Below, piece by piece: positions 2,601 to 30,640 of a stretch of DNA of 64,000 bases; position 1 is the first letter of the stretch, and each line of letters starts with the position of its first letter. The notes under the pieces were generated by a model, which was not told the origin of the DNA, made no database searches, and was given only the letters and a program-made list of their open reading frames with translations. The translations under genes were made by a program, and so were the position numbers. The DNA is from Desulfovibrionaceae bacterium (GTDB lineage Bacteria; Desulfobacterota; Desulfovibrionia; Desulfovibrionales; Desulfovibrionaceae): contig WSYE01000010.1 of assembly GCA_009773665.1 (NCBI GenBank), forward strand, positions 62,001-126,000, in the 5' to 3' direction.

Positions 2601-3221
2601 CTAGGGCTTCAAGGTCCTGACCTTGGCGGCGATGTCCTGGGCCAGCCGCGCCACCAGCCTGCTCTGGGCCGAGGCCAGGTGGGTGTAGTCCGCCCCGCCG
2701 GGGCTCTCCTTGAACATGGAGGTCTGCCAGGCAACGGCCTGGCCGGATGCGTCGATCACCGACCAGTCGGCCTGGAGCACGGCCTCGCCCCCCAGGGTCC
2801 CGTCGAAGCGGCGCACCTGGATGGTTACCTGATAGTCGGGCCGAACTCCGGCTGGCCAGGGAAACAGCACCAGGGGCTTGGTGCAGGTCACTCCGGTCAG
2901 ATCGGCGATGAGGGTGCGCTTGAAGTTGTCGTGCAGAGGTTCGATCCACTGGTCGAAGTCGGCCACGATCATCTGGTGGCTTCCGTTGCGGGTCACGATC
3001 TGGTTGCGGTCCAGGTAGGGAGGGAAGTCCACCGGGCCGATGCCCAGGGAGGGGCAGGGCTGGCCTGGGGCGGCTTTGTCCGCCTGAGCGTCCTGCACAA
3101 CCGGGTCCGGGGCCAGGGTATAGAAGCGGGTGGGGGCGCTCTTGCCGCAGCCGCCCAGAAGGGGCGCGGTCAGGGCCAGTGCGGCGAGCATCATGGCGAG
3201 TGCGTTGGCGCGTGTGAACAT
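2601..3221 (-). CDS. ABC-type transport auxiliary lipoprotein of the Mla/Pqi kind
   Basis: 206 residues with a lipoprotein signal peptide; the lipobox LGGC places the lipidated cysteine at residue 25. The body (FYTLAPDP near the new N-terminus, then LGIGPVDFPPYLDRNQIVTR and QWIEPLHDNFKRTLIADL) matches the ABC-type transport auxiliary component family related to PqiC and the MCE-associated lipoproteins. It would sit on a membrane facing the periplasm and assist the MCE transporter. It is the last gene of the four-gene operon, 3 bases after the MCE gene, and is followed by the 2537-2571 terminator. The family call is confident; the exact partner and lipid cargo are inferred from context. Confidence 0.88.
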   Translation of the reverse strand: MFTRANALAMMLAALALTAPLLGGCGKSAPTRFYTLAPDPVVQDAQADKAAPGQPCPSLGIGPVDFPPYLDRNQIVTRNGSHQMIVADFDQWIEPLHDNFKRTLIADLTGVTCTKPLVLFPWPAGVRPDYQVTIQVRRFDGTLGGEAVLQADWSVIDASGQAVAWQTSMFKESPGGADYTHLASAQSRLVARLAQDIAAKVRTLKP

Positions 3222-3224
3222 GCC

Positions 3225-4235
3225 TTATCTCCTGTTGGTGCCCTTGCCCTGGATCAGGGCTTCCGGGTGGCGTTCAAGATAATCGGCCAGAGTGCGGATG
3301 GAGCGGGCCGCCGCCGCGATCTCGGAAAGGGCCTTGTTCAGGTCCGTGATGGTGGGCGAATCCGGGCTGACTACCTTGTCCATCTTGGTAAGGGTCTGGC
3401 GTCCGTCCTTGAGGGCTGCGTCCAGCACCTTGAGGGTGTTGTTCACGGAACCTGTGAGGCCGGATGCACGCTGGTCCAGGTTGTCGGCCAGATCCTTGTA
3501 GCTCTTGAGGGTTCCGTCAACGCTCTTGGACAGGGGGTCGACCCTGGTGCGGATGTCCTGGGTCAGCGTCCGGAACTCGACCAGGGCCGCGTCCAGGTTG
3601 GCGGGCACCTGGGCCATCTGGGGCGAGTTGATGAACTTCTCGATGCCGGTCACGGCACCGATGAGCCGGTTCACCAACTCCTCCAGGGGCAGGTGCTTGA
3701 GGGTCTGGGACAGTTCGTCGAACATGGACGGCACGGTGGGAATCTCGGGCAGCTTGCTTGCGCCCACCAGCCGGGCCTGCGTGTTGGGCATGAGGTCCAG
3801 GGACACGGCCAACTGGCCGGTGACGAAGCTCTGGGTGACCAGCTGGGCGCGCAGGCCTTTCTCCACCAGATCCTTGAGGACTTCCTCCATGCCTTCCTTG
3901 CGGGCATCCATCAGGGTTTCCTTCGACTGCGAACCTTTGCCGGAGCTCATGTTCAGCAGGCCGCTCTGAAGCTCGATGGTTACCGGGATGTAGAAGTGCA
4001 GGTTGTGCGGGTCGGCGATGACCCCGATCTCGGTGACCAGCCCGATGGGCACGCCGCGAAACACCACGGGCGCGCCGATGGTCAAGCCGCTGACCGAGTT
4101 GTCGAAGAACATGATGAACTTGAACTTCTTGGTGAAGAACATGCCCGATCCCAGTGCGACCACTCCAGCCACGGCCAGGGCCAGCGCTCCCAGCACGAAC
4201 GCGCCGATCATGCCCTTGTTTACTTTGGTGCTCAC
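3225..4235 (-). CDS. mlaD: MlaD-family MCE protein, lipid transport substrate-binding component
   Basis: 336 residues starting at a GTG (4235) with a GGGG purine run 9 bases upstream. One N-terminal transmembrane helix (about residues 9-30, IGAFVLGALALAVAGVVALG) is followed by a single MCE domain (about 38-120, including FRGVPIGLVTEIGV) and a long helical tail rich in Leu/Asp heptads. MCE proteins form hexameric rings in the periplasm that carry phospholipids between the membranes. The tail is longer than in E. coli MlaD (about 180 residues) and is more like the YrbD/Ttg2-type MCE proteins with extended helices. It follows the ATPase gene by 33 bases. Confidence 0.9.
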   Translation of the reverse strand: MSTKVNKGMIGAFVLGALALAVAGVVALGSGMFFTKKFKFIMFFDNSVSGLTIGAPVVFRGVPIGLVTEIGVIADPHNLHFYIPVTIELQSGLLNMSSGKGSQSKETLMDARKEGMEEVLKDLVEKGLRAQLVTQSFVTGQLAVSLDLMPNTQARLVGASKLPEIPTVPSMFDELSQTLKHLPLEELVNRLIGAVTGIEKFINSPQMAQVPANLDAALVEFRTLTQDIRTRVDPLSKSVDGTLKSYKDLADNLDQRASGLTGSVNNTLKVLDAALKDGRQTLTKMDKVVSPDSPTITDLNKALSEIAAAARSIRTLADYLERHPEALIQGKGTNRR

Positions 4236-22941: not shown

Positions 22942-23799
22942 TCAACTGTCTTGTGGCGAGTTGTCCAGGATTTCCAGGGGGGGAGCCTGGGTTATGAAGC
23001 CGTGCTCGGCCAGACATTCGAAGAAGCGCGACAACCCCTGCTGCTCTTCGGGGCCAAGGTCGTAGCTCAGATGGCCGAAGTAGCGCCGTATTTCGGCGCG
23101 GCTCATCTTGGGCTTGGTAAGCGAGGCCAGGCTGACAACTTCCTCGATGGCGGCAACGCCGGCACGTTTGGACTGACACAGGATGCGCGAAGCGGCGGCC
23201 ACGGCCTCGCGGCGCTCCTCCACGGCCTCGCGCCGGGCCACCCACACCCCGAACACGAAGGGCAGGCCGGTCCAGTCGCGCCAGACCTCGCCCAGGTCCA
23301 GCTGATAGGGAAACCTTGGATCGGTGCGCATGGCAAGGGCCTCGTCGCCGATGGCCAGCACGGCGGGGTTCTGTGCGCCCTGGGCCAAGGCCTGGCGCAC
23401 GGAACCGGGGGACTTGACGAAGGCTGGCTTCACGTTGTGGACGCGCTCCAGCACGATGCGCAGAAGCGCCGCAGAGGTGTGGGTCTCGGCTGTGACCAGG
23501 ATGCTGGCGTCCGCGAGCTTGTGCAGGGGGACGCGGCTTAAGAGCAGCACGCTTTTCACCGGCCCCCGGCTGCCGATGGCCAAGTCGGGCAACAGGTAAT
23601 AGCGCTCGGGGTTTCTGGCGTACTCGATGGACGAGCAGGCCGAGAGGTCCAGCCCGCCCGCGCGGATGAGGTCGTTCAGCGTGGCCGGAGGGCCGGACAC
23701 AATATCGAAGCCGTGCTTGACCCAGCCGTCCTCCAGGGGATGGTAGATGGGCAGGACGTTCAAATAGCTGATGCGCCCGAGGCGCAGGTTCACAGGCAT
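22942..23799 (-). CDS. mqnA: chorismate dehydratase, futalosine pathway (MqnA)
   Basis: 285 residues. The N-terminus LRLGRISYLNVLPIYHPLE and the block LSACSSIEYARNPERYYLLPDLAIGSRGPVKSVLLLSR (in pieces SSIEYA, LPDLAIGS, VKSVLLLS) are typical of MqnA, which converts chorismate to 3-enolpyruvylbenzoate, the first step of menaquinone synthesis by the futalosine route. The fold is periplasmic-binding-protein-like but cytoplasmic. Its start overlaps the mqnC stop by one base (23799), so it is translationally coupled. It is the last gene of the tetR-mqnE-mqnC-mqnA operon. Confidence 0.93.
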   Translation of the reverse strand: MPVNLRLGRISYLNVLPIYHPLEDGWVKHGFDIVSGPPATLNDLIRAGGLDLSACSSIEYARNPERYYLLPDLAIGSRGPVKSVLLLSRVPLHKLADASILVTAETHTSAALLRIVLERVHNVKPAFVKSPGSVRQALAQGAQNPAVLAIGDEALAMRTDPRFPYQLDLGEVWRDWTGLPFVFGVWVARREAVEERREAVAAASRILCQSKRAGVAAIEEVVSLASLTKPKMSRAEIRRYFGHLSYDLGPEEQQGLSRFFECLAEHGFITQAPPLEILDNSPQDS

Positions 23800-24863
23800 T
23801 ACAGAGACTCCAGCAGGCTATAGTCCATGGCCCGGCGCACGGGCCTGAATCCGGCGTCGGTGATGGCTTGGCGCACGCCCGGCTCGTCCATGCGGAAACG
23901 GACCCCGGCGGCGGCCACCACGTTTTCCTCGATCATGGTGGAGCCGAAGTCGTTGGCTCCGTAAAAGAGTGACGCCTGGGCGATCTCGCGCCCCATGGTC
24001 ACCCAGGAGGCCTGGACGCTCAGGAAATTGTCCAGCATCAGGCGGGAGATGGTCAGCACCCGCAGATACTCCTGCGGGGAGCACTTGCGCCCGCCCAGGG
24101 CGGTGTTGTCGGGCTGGAAGCCCCAGGGGATGAACGCGGTGAAGCCGCGCGTCTCGTCCTGGAGGTCGCGCAGCGCCAGCAGATGCTCGATGCGCTCGGC
24201 CCAGGTCTCCACGTGGCCGAACATCATGGTGGCCGTGGTGCGAAGCCCCTGAAGGTGCGCCTGACGCATCACATTCAGCCACTCGGCCGAGGAGCACTTG
24301 GCCGGGGCCACGGCCTGGCGCACGCGGTCCACCAGGATCTCCGCGCCGCCGCCAGGGATGGAGGCCAGCCCGGCGGCCTTGAGCCGCGCCACCACCTCGG
24401 CCACGCCAAGACCGGCGAGCTCGGCGAAATAGACGATCTCAGGCGGCGAGAAGCCGTGCACGTGGATGTCCGGGTAGGTCTCGCGCACGAAGTGCAGCAG
24501 GGCCTCATAGTATTCCAGGCCCATGTCCGGGTTATGGCCGCCTTGCAGCAGGATCTGCCTGCCGCCCAGGACCAGGGTCTCTTCTATCTTCTGGCCGAGC
24601 TCCTCGCGGGTGAGCGAATAGCCCCCGGCCTGTCCCGGCGCCTTGAAGAAGGCGCAGAAGCGGCAGCCGCACTGGCAGATGTTGGTGGAATTGACGTTTC
24701 TATCCACCACGTAGGTGACCACCGGGGCCGGATGCTTGCGCAGGCGCGCGCGGTGGGCCAGACTGCCCAAAAGCGGCAGGCTTGCGGACTCGGACAGGAT
24801 GAGGGCCGAGTCGGCCTTGCGGGCCACGGCGAGAACCTGGGCGTGATCGAATATCGCGGACAT
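23799..24863 (-). CDS. mqnC: cyclic dehypoxanthinyl futalosine synthase (MqnC)
   Basis: 354 residues, a radical-SAM enzyme with the cluster-binding motif C63-x3-C67-x2-C70 (NICQCGCRFCAF) after VVTYVVDRNVNSTN. Later blocks SIPGGGAEILVDRVR and TAFIPWGFQPDNTAL are conserved in MqnC. It cyclises dehypoxanthinyl futalosine during menaquinone synthesis. It begins 3 bases after the mqnE stop. Distinguished from MqnE by the N-terminal SRRA-like start and by the order of these blocks; the neighbour is the clear MqnE. Confidence 0.93.
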   Translation of the reverse strand: MSAIFDHAQVLAVARKADSALILSESASLPLLGSLAHRARLRKHPAPVVTYVVDRNVNSTNICQCGCRFCAFFKAPGQAGGYSLTREELGQKIEETLVLGGRQILLQGGHNPDMGLEYYEALLHFVRETYPDIHVHGFSPPEIVYFAELAGLGVAEVVARLKAAGLASIPGGGAEILVDRVRQAVAPAKCSSAEWLNVMRQAHLQGLRTTATMMFGHVETWAERIEHLLALRDLQDETRGFTAFIPWGFQPDNTALGGRKCSPQEYLRVLTISRLMLDNFLSVQASWVTMGREIAQASLFYGANDFGSTMIEENVVAAAGVRFRMDEPGVRQAITDAGFRPVRRAMDYSLLESL

Positions 24864-24866
24864 TCC

Positions 24867-25952
24867 TTAAGCCTCCCGGAAAAGCCCGTCGCGGCGCACG
24901 GGCGTGAAGCCGCTTGAGCGGATGGCGTCCTCGAGGTCGGCGATGGACAGGGCCTGGGCCGAGTCGCTGCCCGCCTCATGGCCGATCTTTTCCTCAACCA
25001 CGGTGCCGTCCAGGTCGTCCGCTCCCCAGGACAGACACAGCTGCGAAAGTTTCAACCCCAGCATCACCCAGTAGGCCTTGATGTGCGCAATGTTGTCCAG
25101 CATCAGGCGCGACACGGCCATGGTGCGCAAAACGTCCATGGCCGAGGGGCCGCGCGCCTCCTCGCCCAGCGGGTTGTTGCCGGGAAGGTAGGGCAGGGGG
25201 ATGAAGCACACGAATCCGCCTGTTGCGTCCTGCTGGCGGCGCAGGGCGTCCATGTGCTCCAGGCGGTGGCGGGTGGTCTCCAGGTGGCCGAACAGCATGG
25301 TGGCGTTGGTGCGAAGGCCCACGTCGTGAGCCTCGGCCATCACGGACAGCCATGCCTCGCCGCCGATCTTCTCGGGGCAGAGCGCCTTGCGGGGGACGTC
25401 CGCAAAGATCTCCGCGCCGCCGCCGGGAAGCATGTCCACGCCGGAAGCTTTCAAACGCATGAGCACCTCGCGGATGCTTACGCCCGAAAGCTTGGCCAGA
25501 TGGTCCACCTCCACGGCAGTCAGGGCCTTGATGGACGCCTTGGGGTACGCGGCGCGCACCCTGGCGGCCAGGTCTTCGTAGTAGTCGAGGCCCAGGCTAG
25601 GGTGGCATCCGCCCACGATGTGCACCTCGTCCACGGCTCCGGCCTCGCGCAGCTTGGCCAGGGCCTGATCCGGGGTGAGCACGTAGGCGCCCTCCTGCCC
25701 CTCGTCGCGGCGGTAGGCGCAGAAGCGGCAGCGGTTCACGCAGACGTTGGTGGGGTTCACGTGGCGGTTGACCACATAGTGCACCCGGTCGCCGTGCAGG
25801 CGCTTGCGGGCGTGGGCGGCCAGGGCCGCCGGGACGTGCGGGTCCGGGCAGTCGAACAGGGCTTGGCCCTGCTCAAGGGTCAGGCGCTTGCCGGAGAGCA
25901 CCGCATCCAGCACGGGCTCCAGGCCAAGCGAGGCGATGTGCGATCTATCCAA
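24867..25952 (-). CDS. mqnE: aminofutalosine synthase (MqnE), TTG start
   Basis: 361 residues. Radical-SAM motif C71-x3-C75-x2-C78 in NVCVNRCRFCAYRRDE, then EVHIVGGCHPSLGLDYYED and DMLPGGGAEIFADVPRK, as in MqnE, which joins 3-enolpyruvylbenzoate-derived radical to adenosine from SAM. The start is TTG 25952: GGAGG lies 8 bases upstream, and the frame begins inside the last codons of tetR (8-base overlap), so coupling explains the weak start. Part of the mqn operon. Confidence 0.92.
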   Translation of the reverse strand: MDRSHIASLGLEPVLDAVLSGKRLTLEQGQALFDCPDPHVPAALAAHARKRLHGDRVHYVVNRHVNPTNVCVNRCRFCAYRRDEGQEGAYVLTPDQALAKLREAGAVDEVHIVGGCHPSLGLDYYEDLAARVRAAYPKASIKALTAVEVDHLAKLSGVSIREVLMRLKASGVDMLPGGGAEIFADVPRKALCPEKIGGEAWLSVMAEAHDVGLRTNATMLFGHLETTRHRLEHMDALRRQQDATGGFVCFIPLPYLPGNNPLGEEARGPSAMDVLRTMAVSRLMLDNIAHIKAYWVMLGLKLSQLCLSWGADDLDGTVVEEKIGHEAGSDSAQALSIADLEDAIRSSGFTPVRRDGLFREA

Positions 25953-26589
25953 CGTGGAATCCTCCAGCCAGCATGGCGGCCAGCTTTCTGGCGGCCTGCC
26001 GTGAGTTTTCAGGGTCGTCCAGGCTTAAGCCGAGGCCGATGTCCATCCAGGGCTGGGCCTGGGCCTGGACGAAGCGGTCCAGCACGGCGTCCAGCACGAA
26101 CACGGCCAGGGTGGCGTCCAAAGTTTCGGGCAGCTCACCCGAGGCTTTGGCTTCAACGATGATGGGGGTCAGGAACCGGGCGGACAGGGCGCGAACCTTG
26201 CCCAGGAATTGCTCGCGCAGGGGAAAGTCGCCCCCGGCCAGCATTTTCAGATAAATGGCGTAGATGTCGGGGTGGGTGCGCACGAACTCCGTGCCCACCA
26301 GCAAAAGGCGCTCCAGGCGCTCGGCCAGGGGGCGGGCTTTTGTCTCATCGCGGGCCTCGCGCAGAAACAGCGCGAAGTGCTCCACCGCGCCGTCGAACAC
26401 GCGCGAGAAGAGCCCCTCCTTGCTGCCGAAATACTTGAACAGCGACCCCTTGGCGATGCCCAGGCGCGCGGACAGCCTGTTCATGCTGGCCCCCAGGAAG
26501 CCCTGCTGGGCGAACTCGCGCCGGGCCTCGCCAAGCACGCGCTGCTGCTTGTCTGTGGGGATGTTCTGGAAGGTGGGGCTTGCGTCCAT
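25945..26589 (-). CDS. TetR-family regulator of the mqn genes
   Basis: 214 residues. An N-terminal helix-turn-helix (about residues 16-60; FAQQGFLGASMNRLSARLGIAKGSLFKYFGSKEGLFSRVF read in pieces: GASMNRLSARLGIAKGSLF, KYFGSKEGLF) is of TetR type, followed by a helical ligand-binding domain. It is the first gene of an operon with mqnE, mqnC and mqnA, overlapping mqnE by 8 bases, and diverges from mqnD with only 25 bases between the start codons. A perfect GTGACC/GGTCAC palindrome in that gap is the likely operator. The effector is unknown; a menaquinone precursor or fatty-acyl ligand would be a guess. Confidence 0.88.
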   Translation of the reverse strand: MDASPTFQNIPTDKQQRVLGEARREFAQQGFLGASMNRLSARLGIAKGSLFKYFGSKEGLFSRVFDGAVEHFALFLREARDETKARPLAERLERLLLVGTEFVRTHPDIYAIYLKMLAGGDFPLREQFLGKVRALSARFLTPIIVEAKASGELPETLDATLAVFVLDAVLDRFVQAQAQPWMDIGLGLSLDDPENSRQAARKLAAMLAGGFHVG

Positions 26590-26606
26590 GGGGCCTCATG
26601 CGTAAA

Positions 26607-26622
26607 GTGACCGGGTGGTCAC
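26607..26622. promoter_or_regulatory. palindromic operator candidate between tetR and mqnD
   Basis: GTGACC (26607-26612), spacer GGGT, GGTCAC (26617-26622) is a perfect inverted repeat. It covers the start of mqnD (GTG 26615) and lies 18 bases upstream of the tetR start. Dyads of TGACC/GGTCA form are common TetR-family operators, so it probably mediates joint control of both divergent units. Confidence 0.6.
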
Positions 26623-27484
26623 CGATACTCCCCCCAGCACCCCCCGTCAACTGAGGCCGCTTAGTTTGGGCATCTCGCCGTGCCCCAACGATACGTTCAT
26701 CTTCCACGCCCTGCTGCACGGCCTCGCGCCCAGGGAACCGGGATTTCCGCTCTCCCGGCTGGTGATGGCCGACGTGGAGGAGCTGAACTCCCTGGCCGCG
26801 CGCGGCGAGCTGGACGTGGTGAAGATATCCATGGCCGCCATGGCTGACGCCGCCCCGCATTATCGGCTTCTGCCCTGCGGCGGGGCGCTGGGGCGCGGGT
26901 GCGGCCCGCTGTTGGTCACCCGCGCTGATCGAACACCTGGCACACCCATCGAGACCTTGGCCCTGCCCGGCGCGCGCACCACGGCGTCGCTCCTGGCGGA
27001 GCTTTCCGGGATACCTGGCAGGCGCGTGCAGATGCGCTACGACGAGGTGATGCCCGCCGTGATCCGGGGCGAAGTGGACGCGGGCGTGGTCATCCACGAG
27101 GGGCGCTTCACCTACGCGGCGCAGGGTCTGGCCCTGCTTCAGGATTTCGGCGTGTGGTGGGAGGGGCGCTACGGCCTGCCGCTGCCGTTGGGGGTCATCG
27201 CCGCCCGCCGTGACCTGGGGGAGCCGGGCGCGCAGTTCGCCGCGCAGGCCATCCGCGAAAGTCTGCAACACGCCTGGAAGCACCCGCAGGACAGCAAGGC
27301 CTTCATCGCCGAGCATGCCCAGGAGCTTTCGCCCGAGGTGTGCCAGTCGCACATCGAGACCTTCGTGACGCCGTTCAGCCTGGAGATCGGGCAGGAAGGG
27401 CGCAGAGCCATAGAAGCCTTGGCCGAGGCGGCCTTCAGGCTGGCCGGACGGCCCGGCGACGTGCCGGATGATCTGTTCTGGTAG
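26615..27484 (+). CDS. mqnD: 1,4-dihydroxy-6-naphthoate synthase (MqnD), GTG start
   Basis: 289 residues from GTG 26615; no ATG is available before the conserved SLGISPCPNDTFIFHALLHG block (residues 17-36), which defines MqnD. Later RGEVDAGVVIHEGRFTY and GLPLPLGVIAARRDLG also match. The enzyme cleaves cyclic dehypoxanthine futalosine to dihydroxynaphthoate. It is transcribed away from the tetR-mqnECA operon, so the pathway is split into two divergent units sharing one control region. mqnB is not in the window. Confidence 0.92.
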   Translation: MVTDTPPSTPRQLRPLSLGISPCPNDTFIFHALLHGLAPREPGFPLSRLVMADVEELNSLAARGELDVVKISMAAMADAAPHYRLLPCGGALGRGCGPLLVTRADRTPGTPIETLALPGARTTASLLAELSGIPGRRVQMRYDEVMPAVIRGEVDAGVVIHEGRFTYAAQGLALLQDFGVWWEGRYGLPLPLGVIAARRDLGEPGAQFAAQAIRESLQHAWKHPQDSKAFIAEHAQELSPEVCQSHIETFVTPFSLEIGQEGRRAIEALAEAAFRLAGRPGDVPDDLFW

Positions 27485-27494
27485 ACTCCGGCGA

Positions 27495-27926
27495 TCAGGC
27501 CTGCTCCTGGACGATGCGCCCGGAGCTCGCTTCCGGGGCGACCGGACGCGTTTCGGCAGGCAGGTCCAGGCCCAGTGGAAGTGACTGGTTCCGCGCGGGC
27601 GCGGCGGCAGCCGCGTTGGCAGCGATGGTCGAGGGATTGTCCGGCCCGTCCTTGACCACGGTGAGCTCCTGGCCTTCGGGCACCGGAGCCTGGAAAGAGC
27701 TCATCGCCGCCGCGATCTTGCTGGGGTTGTCCGAGTCCGGCAGGCTGTTCAGCACCCCCTCCAGGAAGGCCCGGTCCCTGTTGCTGGGCCGTTCGGGATC
27801 GTTCAACGGCCTTTCGTACGCCATTCCCTGTGAATAGGCGTCGTGGGCCAGACGCTGCTCCTTGCGCATCTGCTTGGCCGGTTCGGCCCCTGCGTAACGT
27901 AAAAAGTTGCGGTCCCAGATTTTCAT
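27495..27926 (-). CDS. hypothetical protein, acidic/Ala-Pro-rich, 143 residues
   Basis: Not recognised. Soluble, no signal peptide or membrane segment. The first 50 residues are charged (KIWDRNFLRYAGAEPAKQMRKEQRL). The rest is low complexity and contains a near-repeat, DNPSKIAAAM at about 66-75 and DNPSTIAANA near 96-105. It ends 10 bases from the mqnD stop (convergent) and lies 16 bases downstream of the DUF4239 gene on the same strand, so it may be the second gene of that pair. A start at ATG 27926 gives a compact gene. Confidence 0.6.
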   Translation of the reverse strand: MKIWDRNFLRYAGAEPAKQMRKEQRLAHDAYSQGMAYERPLNDPERPSNRDRAFLEGVLNSLPDSDNPSKIAAAMSSFQAPVPEGQELTVVKDGPDNPSTIAANAAAAAPARNQSLPLGLDLPAETRPVAPEASSGRIVQEQA

Positions 27927-27942
27927 GGCGGATATTCCGGAC

Positions 27943-28740
27943 TCAGCGCGGCGCGCCCTGGAGGGTGAGCATTCCGGCGTGCACTTCCGTAAATGGCGCA
28001 GCCGACACGTTCAGCACCCCGGAAAACGGCGTGGCGATGTCCAGGATGAAGTACACGCAGGAGAACATCAGGAAGGCCACGATGATCTCCAGCGCCACCT
28101 GCGGGCGCGTCTGCTCCGGGTTGGTGAGCAAAAGCCCCACGAACACCCCCAGTAAGCCAAATCCCAGGATTATCCACACGGGCGGGTACAGGTTGCCGGA
28201 CAAGGTCTGGGAGCGGGCCACCCGCTGGCGGTTCAGGTCCGCCAGGGCCTGGCCCAGCCCGGCATAGTAGGACTGGTTATCCGCGCCTGTGGGCTTCATT
28301 GCGTAGAAGGCCTCCCAGATGTCGCCCAGGCGGTCGGAGGCCCTCACGCTCATGGACTGATCGTGGTCCATGGCGGGCCATTCGTCCTCCACCACGGCCT
28401 TGGAGTAGGCGGTCAGGGCCTGCCGGAATCCCTCCGAGCCCGGAAGCGGCACTGACAAACGGTAGGCCACCATCACCGCGCCCGCTTCGGCGCTGACCAG
28501 GCTCTTAGCCGAACCGTACGCGCCCCACAGCGTGACGATGGCGAAACCAAGGAAAAACGCATAGACTGAAGCGAAGAGTGAGAAAATTTCTGATGAGATG
28601 AGCTTTCGCGAAGCGTCGCCACGCGCCAGAGTCTTGCGGCGCAGGGCGTAAAGAAAGCCCGGCGCGGCCAGCGACAGGGTCAGTATGACCCCGAACACCA
28701 GGTAGTATTGCGGGTCGAAGTCCTTGAATTCGGAGAGCAT
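27943..28740 (-). CDS. DUF4239 (bestrophin-like) membrane protein
   Basis: 265 residues with four predicted membrane helices: about 14-33, 50-72, then two near 185-205 and 215-235 after a large soluble loop (about 80-180). The pattern, with SSEIFSLFASVYAFFLGFAIVTLW and SLSGNLYPPVWIILGFGLLGV-like blocks, fits the DUF4239 family, whose members are often described as bestrophin-like. Role unknown; possibly ion permeation. It is divergent from the peroxiredoxin gene, 135 bases away. Confidence 0.78.
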   Translation of the reverse strand: MLSEFKDFDPQYYLVFGVILTLSLAAPGFLYALRRKTLARGDASRKLISSEIFSLFASVYAFFLGFAIVTLWGAYGSAKSLVSAEAGAVMVAYRLSVPLPGSEGFRQALTAYSKAVVEDEWPAMDHDQSMSVRASDRLGDIWEAFYAMKPTGADNQSYYAGLGQALADLNRQRVARSQTLSGNLYPPVWIILGFGLLGVFVGLLLTNPEQTRPQVALEIIVAFLMFSCVYFILDIATPFSGVLNVSAAPFTEVHAGMLTLQGAPR

Positions 28741-28875
28741 GGCTGTCCATAGCGTGTTCGGGGTTGCATGGAAAGTTCCCGGTCGTCTCGCGCTTTCCGG
28801 GAAACAGCAAAACTAAAGCATTTCGTCAGTCTTATCGGCAATCACCTGACCAACTTAAGAGCTAAGGAGGGCGCA

Positions 28876-29364
28876 ATGGCGGCTTTCGAACCAGGGGCCA
28901 AGGCCCCGGATTTCACCCTTGCGGCGGCCATGCCGGACGGGTCCGAGACGCAGGTCAGCCTGTCCGGGCTCGCGGGCGGCTGGGTTGTGGTGTTCGTCTA
29001 CCCCAAGGATTCCACCTCGGGCTGAACGGTGGAGGCTCTGGAGTTTTCAGAGCGCGCGCGTGAGTTCGCCCAGGCCGGGGCGCAGGTGTTCGGCCTGTCC
29101 AAGGATTCGCTCAAGTCTCACCACGGGTTCATCGCCAAGAAAGGCCTGACTGTCCCGCTTCTGAGCGACCCTTCCACCGAGGCCATCAAGGCGCTGGGAG
29201 CCTGGGGCGTGAAGAAGCTGTACGGCAAGGAGTCCGAGGGCGTGGTCCGCTCCACGGTGCTCATCGCGCCGGACGGCACCGTGGCCCGCCACTGGCCAAA
29301 GGCCCCAAGTGCCGGGCATGCTCAGGAGGTGCTGGAGGCTGTGTTGAAGCTGGCTGGCAAGTGA
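28876..29364 (+). CDS. selenocysteine-containing peroxiredoxin (Bcp/PrxQ type)
   Basis: 162 residues if the in-frame TGA at 29023-29025 is read as selenocysteine. Sequence before it is MAAFEPGAKAPDFTLAAAM...VVVFVYPKDSTSG, and after it TVEALEFSERAREF through APDGTVARHWPKAP. In Bcp proteins the peroxidatic site reads YPKD.TPGCT.EA, so the TGA falls exactly on the catalytic Cys (residue 50). The frame is open on both sides and the protein has normal Bcp length. A small hairpin 9 bases downstream (29035-29053) can serve as SECIS. RBS GGAGGGCGCA sits directly upstream of ATG 28876. It reduces hydroperoxides with thiol donors in the cytoplasm. An automated caller would split it in two. Confidence 0.88.
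29035..29053 (+). promoter_or_regulatory. putative bacterial SECIS hairpin
   Basis: GCTCTG (29035-29040), loop GAGTTTT, CAGAGC (29048-29053). The loop starts with G and lies 16-22 bases after the TGA, within the distance expected for SelB recognition in bacteria. It is inside the coding sequence. Confidence 0.6.
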
Positions 29365-29462
29365 CAAGGGGGAGTCGGGAGGCGGATACTGACGAAAGAT
29401 GGGCAGGAGGCTCTGTTTACTCCCCTTGTGTGGTGTTTAGGGGACGGATATGGACGGAAGAA

Positions 29463-29506
29463 GGCCTCCGGCGGCCAAAGGGCTACGCCCTTTGGAAACC
29501 CATATA
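29463..29506 (-). repeat. GC-rich intergenic repeat, copy F3
   Basis: On the minus strand it reads TATATGGGTTTCC, hairpin CCAAAGGGC/GCCCTTTGG, then CCGCCGGAGGCC. It is the inverted counterpart of F1, including the TATATGGG lead. It lies between the convergent peroxiredoxin and the small gene at 29589. Confidence 0.8.
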
Positions 29507-29588
29507 GGGTCTGTGGTTCCGGCAAGTTCTATCGAGAGGAAGGCGGCACGATGAGAGCCGGGGCTCAAAGAAAGAGTGTCTCGCCGAC

Positions 29589-29804
29589 TCAGGCCTGCTG
29601 TTTGGGCGGAGCGACGGGCAGGGAGTCCTGTTTGGCCTTGGCGTTCCAGTGGTCGCGCACGGCAAGGCAGTCTTCCTTGGGCAGGGTGCGGTCCATGAGG
29701 GCGAAGAAGCGCGAACGCAGGATCACCAGATCATGGTAGCTCTCGGCCTGGTCGATGAGTCGCTTATAATAGGCGGCTGATTGCTGTTCATCCATGACCT
29801 GCAT
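29589..29804 (-). CDS. small hypothetical protein, 71 residues
   Basis: From ATG 29804 (or ATG 29795). The sequence (MDEQQSAAYYKRLIDQAESYHDLVILRSRFFALMD in parts: YYKRLIDQAESYHDLV, LRSRFFALMDRTLP) is a charged, helical, gene-like protein with no signal or membrane part. It resembles short proteins of unknown role found in sulfate reducers, but I cannot name a family. It stands alone, between repeat F3 and the divergent SH3 gene. Confidence 0.6.
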   Translation of the reverse strand: MQVMDEQQSAAYYKRLIDQAESYHDLVILRSRFFALMDRTLPKEDCLAVRDHWNAKAKQDSLPVAPPKQQA

Positions 29805-29974
29805 TTATCACCACAATCTGGTGGTTGGCAACAGTCTGGAAGCAAATGCGCGGGCTGGCGTAAGGCTCTTGAACTTGTGGTCTTTCTTGGATAGTCTCAC
29901 CCCCCGATGCCGAAGCGGCTGGGGTGGCGTTTTTTCGGTTAGTTGCATCTGTATAGAACGATCTGGCGGACACC

Positions 29975-30640
29975 ATGCGTATCCTGCGATATATAGCCGT
30001 ATGTTCGGCCTTGCTATGCCTCCCTTCGCTGGCTGCCGGGCAGCAGTTTTTTGTTTCCGACGTGCAGGAAATCACCGTGCGTACCGGGCCGTCGCTCGAC
30101 AACAAGATCATTCAGATGGTCCGCAGCGGCGCCAAAATGGACAAGATCAAGGAAGAGGGCGAGTGGGCCATGGTGCGCACGGACACCGGCAAGGAAGGCT
30201 GGGTGCTCAAGCGGTATCTTTCTCCTGACACGCCTGTGAAGGTGCAGTTCGAGGAGTTCAAGACCCGCAATGCCCAGATGATCGAAAAGGCCGGGCAGGT
30301 GGAAGCCATCGTGGGCAAGTTCGAGGAGGAGAACAAGAACCTCCAGAAGAACCTGGCCGGGCTTCAGGGCGAATACGGCAAGCTCAAGTCCGAATATGAG
30401 ACTCTCTCCAAGGCCAACGCCAACGTGGCCGAGATGACCAAGAGCTTTCAGGAAATGAAGACCGCGTCCGAGACTGCGCGCCAGGAGACGGACCGCCTGA
30501 AGCGCGAGAACGAGACCTTGCGCGACATCTCCGACGTGAAGTGGTTCCTGGCCGGGGCCGGGGTGCTGTTCGCGGGGTGGGTGTTCGGGTATCTGTTGGG
30601 GCGCTCGGCCCGCAAGAAGTCCAACCGGATGTATTTATAA
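29975..30640 (+). CDS. SH3-domain and membrane-anchor protein (TIGR04211/YgiM type)
   Basis: 221 residues. Signal peptide (cleavage about LAAG/Q near 22), a bacterial SH3 domain (about 25-85, VQEITVRTGPSLDNKIIQMV and GWVLKRYLS), a long coiled coil (about 95-190, FEEENKNLQKNLAGLQ), then a C-terminal membrane helix (about 193-211) and a basic tail RSARKKSNRMYL. This layout defines the TIGR04211 'SH3 and anchor' family, including E. coli YgiM. It sits in the inner membrane with SH3 in the periplasm, perhaps linked to cell-wall turnover. It is transcribed alone and is followed by hairpin repeat B. Confidence 0.9.
   Translation: MRILRYIAVCSALLCLPSLAAGQQFFVSDVQEITVRTGPSLDNKIIQMVRSGAKMDKIKEEGEWAMVRTDTGKEGWVLKRYLSPDTPVKVQFEEFKTRNAQMIEKAGQVEAIVGKFEEENKNLQKNLAGLQGEYGKLKSEYETLSKANANVAEMTKSFQEMKTASETARQETDRLKRENETLRDISDVKWFLAGAGVLFAGWVFGYLLGRSARKKSNRMYL

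Follow-up and report, generated by a model that had tools for sequence, protein, structure and literature searches.

The closest known counterparts of the gene analyzed here include Sec-containing peroxiredoxins of the Bcp type. A table in PMC9312934 lists a selenocysteine (Sec) containing peroxiredoxin of COG1225 (Bcp) with the motif TxxU (WP_011365628.1), so the selenoprotein form of Bcp that had been presumed known when this DNA was described is in print, and the relevant excerpt of PMC13188914 gives the Sec peroxiredoxin as PF00578, again with TxxU. Both reviews refer to a 2001 paper on the Sec peroxiredoxin of Eubacterium acidaminophilum. Switches from Cys to Sec are also already known, because a table in PMC1794560 (2006) lists 12 Sec peroxiredoxins and 5 Cys-to-Sec events. 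Literature searches that paired Sec with the terms PrxQ, Bcp, 1-Cys or resolving Cys gave no title or abstract about a Sec-Bcp. In a 64,000-nucleotide stretch of DNA, called here the window, we found by computation a bcp gene with an in-frame TGA at its active site (sec-bcp). Because the two reviews list a Sec peroxiredoxin with TxxU, we regard sec-bcp as a further member of the known Sec-Bcp family. It resembles the listed protein in its Bcp-type domain, predicted peroxidatic Sec, T-S-G-U motif and bacterial Sec machinery, and no difference in kind was found in a comparison with WP_011365628.1 by its description. Its own particulars are that it has no other Cys and that its genus has Cys orthologs at the same locus. 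Judging from the sequence, we are highly confident that a selenocysteine-containing Bcp/PrxQ peroxiredoxin is the best explanation of the gene, and its reactive position very probably holds selenocysteine, encoded by a "stop" codon.

The frame of sec-bcp, MAAFEPGAKAPDFTL...YPKDSTSG-U-TVEALEFSE...LAGK, gives one Bcp protein and is interrupted by TGA just once before it closes with the TGA at 29362-29364. The preliminary description had expected gene callers to split it, and a mechanical ORF list indeed gives two frames, 28768-29025 and 29029-29364. The Pfam AhpC-TSA model (PF00578) matched residues 6-137 with an E value of 1.8e-32 (112.3 bits against a cut-off of 26); this match crosses the TGA, in agreement with the earlier remark that Bcp sequence lies on both sides of it, and, judged by PF00578, gives the product the Bcp/AhpC-TSA domain of the Sec-containing peroxiredoxin (COG1225, TxxU). 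The AlphaFold model of the product had a pLDDT of 93.9, and the top Foldseek matches were Bcp/PrxQ structures (X. campestris PrxQ) and a Burkholderia relative. With Xanthomonas campestris PrxQ/Bcp (5iiz) the product shares 43% identity, and the AlphaFold model gave a TM-score of 0.84/0.86; it differs in that Cys48 of the Xanthomonas enzyme corresponds to Sec50 and C84, which is mutated in 5iph, corresponds to Ile.

Nine NCBIfam models matched the product, none above its own curated cut-off; the PrxQ equivalogs scored 141.2 against 260 bits (NF053650) and 100.9 against 140 bits (NF006960), and membership in PrxU (NF040737) was rejected at 55 bits against a curated cut-off of 270. PrxU, which we take to be the Eubacterium acidaminophilum Sec peroxiredoxin, is likewise a peroxiredoxin with a known selenocysteine form, but its model is longer (233 positions). 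We also observed in relatives a further TGA-containing peroxiredoxin with frames of ~240-314 aa and 31-37% identity (L024-L028, L031-L033, L038), perhaps PrxU-like, and found none in the window's own incomplete genome.

Features of the sec-bcp locus, in window positions
Feature	Position	Strand	Basis or remark
Shine-Dalgarno-like AAGGAGG	28864..28870	+	Sequence; ATG at 28876 begins 5 nt on
sec-bcp (PrxQ) gene	28876..29364	+	162 residues with Sec50; Pfam, AlphaFold, Foldseek
In-frame UGA, probably read as Sec, peroxidatic position	29023..29025	+	Alignment to PrxQ and 17 homologs
Candidate bacterial SECIS apical stem-loop, GCTCTGGA-GTT-TTCAGAGC	29035..29053	+	Conservation, synonymous-codon test, rule count

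The alignment with a Cys-containing Bcp proposed in the preliminary description placed the TGA where it had been said to lie: in a phmmer comparison against the PDB, residue 50, the U of STSG-U-TVEA (whose T-S-G-U fits TxxU), was aligned with the C of YPKDSTPGCTTE, which is the peroxidatic Cys in PrxQ/Bcp from Xanthomonas campestris (5iox). The same codon is TGA in three other members of the genus (G003, G005 and G006) and in a gene of another genus (G338), and TGC in three further congeners (G001, G002 and G004). In 5/5 pairs of Sec genes computed, dN/dS was below 1 on either side of the TGA, at ~0.11-0.64 before it (the highest, ~0.64, for the pair G000-G006) and 0.11-0.27 after it. These results bear on the possibility that sec-bcp is a broken gene or a sequencing error, a TGC changed to TGA, with a protein that ends at residue 49. 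The source genome (G000) is a MAG of 3.0 Mb in 53 contigs that is only 66% complete, its selD is frame-broken, and a Sec-type Bcp of G019 (L022) looks decayed, all of which would suit such an explanation; against it, the frame stays open under dN/dS below 1 beyond the TGA, the hairpin described below is kept, and a sequencing slip, which a correction to TGC or TGT would have revealed, is very unlikely because three congeners carry the identical TGA. We therefore rejected a pseudogene or sequencing error, the probability of which we consider very slight. When 149 in-frame TGA codons of the window were scanned by GC3, the one in sec-bcp came only fifth; the four others that were tested among the 15 listed gave no Pfam match.

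Consistent with Sec decoding, G000 contains a tRNA-Sec (83.9 bits; called by ARAGORN as tRNA-SeC with anticodon tca), SelA (591 bits, cut-off 268) and SelB (355 bits, cut-off 242), so that the absence of selA, selB or selC, named at the outset as grounds for giving up the Sec reading, was not encountered. SelD is present in two pieces with an in-frame TGA of its own (KAAG-U-AAK; G000:C23:14992-15857, loci L047 and L048). A 55-nt deletion relative to the congener G003, which may be a MAG fault or a real loss, breaks its frame and makes the supply of selenophosphate in this strain uncertain. An unbroken selD with one TGA was found in 7/7 relatives examined, and SelA in 24/24 genomes examined. 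The UGA might also be read through as Trp, Cys or Gly with no selenium involved, and our tests do bear more directly on readthrough than on selenium. We nevertheless regard this as highly improbable: chemistry leads one to expect Sec at just the residue on which the UGA falls, the genome has tRNA-Sec, SelA and SelB, and in all 154 matched loci (duplicates included) the codon at this column is TGC, TGT or TGA. In addition, 4/4 Sec genes of the genus end in TGA, and TGA therefore also works as a stop.

All seven genomes of the genus returned by our searches hold the gene. Identity to the G000 protein was 92% (G003), 72% (G005) and 69% (G006) for the TGA forms and 58-61% for the TGC (Cys) forms, and the Sec forms have no Cys besides the Sec position. 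Within the 1.5 kb fetched, each of the six congeners shares at least two neighbor genes with G000: an unnamed gene (at 27495 in the window) in 6/6, a bestrophin-like gene in 5/6 (not in G002), a menaquinone biosynthesis gene in 4/6 and an SH3 gene in 3/6. Because these neighbors are common to them, the six genes occupy the same locus, and Sec and Cys versions of one gene coexist within a single genus. None of these neighbor genes was seen beside the gene in G338 or in four Cys relatives in other genera. Near sec-bcp, the window holds two radical-SAM-like genes (assigned by eye) and a PF02621 menaquinone biosynthesis gene at 23799-27484, which suggests a futalosine-type menaquinone cluster.

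To place the gene among its relatives, we used a class search of 348 genomes, the same number that the order search returned, in which the Bcp profile matched 62 at E 1e-30 and TGA stood at the site in 11, and a phylum draw of 395 genomes, with a Bcp match in 104 and TGA at the site in 22; G000 is counted in both. Removal from the 154 matched loci of those below 110 bits and those identical over the 80-residue core left 110 homologs, 32 Sec and 78 Cys, a ratio that is not a prevalence, as every TGA-flagged match was fetched and the Cys matches only in part. In five TGA-flagged matches (G566, G581, G423, G352 and G388) the site itself is Cys and the TGA lies elsewhere; these are not counted as Sec. 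One of the 110 homologs, L022 of another genus (G019:C378, ~2905-3319), is a Sec-type Bcp with a split match, the motif NTSD-U-TTEAW and no hairpin under the rule given below.

A GCTCTG/CAGAGC hairpin had been noted 9 bases past the internal TGA, and folding recovered it at this distance as an 8-bp stem with the loop GTT. Its 19 nt, GCTCTGGAGTTTTCAGAGC, are identical in 4/4 Sec genes of the genus. The Sec gene of G338 has GCGCTGGAGTTTTCAGCGC, that is, GCGCTGGA-GTT-TTCAGCGC, in which a single apical-stem pair has changed in a compensatory way (U-A to G-C). A second two-sided pair change in the G338 alignment lies in the lower stem, which other rows break and which showed no conservation across the aligned rows. 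In G001, G002 and G004, the Cys orthologs of the genus, this hairpin does not fold. When the genes were recoded synonymously over 24 nt, the native hairpin energy was lower in 5/5 Sec genes (p 0.001-0.017), and 1/8 Cys controls fell under 0.05 (L053, 0.049); over 33 nt, p was <0.05 in 5/5 Sec genes and in 2/8 Cys controls (L051, 0.006; L053, 0.039). Codon usage from the window was applied to every genome in this test, and the hairpin is built with codons that the window seldom uses, such as TCA (3.1% of Ser) and GCT (9.5% of Ala). Dinucleotide shuffles of a 44-nt stretch were not significant (z only -1.26; 24/200 folded equally well), and codon identity over the hairpin did not discriminate, with 7/8 codons kept in 3/3 Cys pairs too.

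We also counted homologs that satisfy a SECIS-like rule, the underlying idea of which comes from bacterial SECIS work: a stem of at least 5 pairs and a loop of 3-8 nt with G in one of its first two places that starts 13-28 nt after the codon. The thresholds were our own, set before the count but after the sequences had been seen. The rule was satisfied by 25/32 Sec and 6/78 Cys homologs (Fisher 4e-13, relatedness ignored) and failed by 7/32 Sec homologs; leaving out the four genus genes and G338, all of which pass, the count was 20/27. An Rfam scan of 28000-30000 returned no SECIS and one snoRNA match at chance level. Folding after the terminal TGA was weak, at -5.5 kcal/mol compared with -15.3 kcal/mol after the internal UGA. 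Taken together, the conservation of the hairpin, the synonymous test and the rule count suggest that the UGA is followed by a SECIS. SelB with Sec-tRNA(Sec) would then read the UGA as Sec because of the hairpin, and the second TGA, which has no comparable hairpin, would end the protein.

A quick tree was built from 109 homologs with the active-site column masked and L022 left out. The seven genus orthologs formed one clade (100, starred), in which the four Sec forms (82) were sister to the three Cys forms (85), neither starred, and this clade lies within a group of 39 rows that, leaving the seven aside, are all Cys but for G338. The best tree requires at least 10 Sec/Cys changes, 5 of them forced by starred branches, and a single clade of all 31 Sec forms was rejected (p-AU 6e-81), so Sec/Cys changes recur. 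In a SelA tree the same four Sec species group together (92/93, not starred). With all seven orthologs in a single clade and mostly Cys forms around them, the simplest history, though not proven, would be one in-situ Cys-to-Sec switch in the ancestor of the four Sec species of the genus, followed by vertical descent. Sec could instead have been the ancestral state of the genus, with Cys replacing it in G001, G002 and G004. The modestly supported sister relation of the Sec four and the Cys three would allow this, as would a clade that joins the Sec four to G338, which was not rejected (p-AU 0.398); we consider this history unlikely, as the group around the seven orthologs is Cys apart from themselves and G338, and the Cys genes of the genus do not form the hairpin.

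The product of sec-bcp contains zero cysteines, and no resolving Cys of an atypical 2-Cys PrxQ was found in it, either in helix 2 (+5) or in helix 3 (~+36). We infer a 1-Sec mechanism with no resolving Cys, in which the Sec selenolate would attack H2O2 or alkyl hydroperoxides and become a selenenic acid; because the protein has no cysteine, a thiol or dithiol from elsewhere, either thioredoxin or a low-molecular thiol, would have to reduce this acid. Within the genus, the four Sec forms have YGKES where the three Cys orthologs have CGKxC. Our guess is that CGKxC is a resolving pair; a gain of this pair in the Cys lineage is more probable than its loss in the Sec lineage, because nearby Cys outgroups (such as L016, L051, L052 and L055) have YGK there. 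Among the 110 homologs, a candidate partner Cys (at +5, at ~+36 or in CGKxC) was present in 0/32 Sec and 36/78 Cys forms (24 at +5, 1 at +36 and 11 with CGKxC), with a Fisher value of 2e-7 uncorrected for relatedness. No other Cys at all was found in 21/32 Sec and 16/78 Cys forms; the remaining 11 Sec forms have Cys elsewhere. Over independent pairs (n=5) the partner-Cys pattern was not significant: on average 3.4 pairs followed it, 1.6 were level and 0 ran against it (p 0.125-0.5).

It is possible, though less likely than not, that Bcp takes up Sec only in lineages that have no resolving Cys, and that a 1-Cys enzyme may be improved either by a peroxidatic Sec or by the gain of a partner Cys, both of which would have occurred at one locus in this genus (YGKES with Sec, n=4; CGKxC with Cys, n=3). 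For annotation, the analysis restores as one gene what mechanical ORF finding cuts in two. With closely related Sec and Cys orthologs at one locus, near-matched enzymes could be used to test what advantage Sec gives over Cys and what a resolving Cys contributes.
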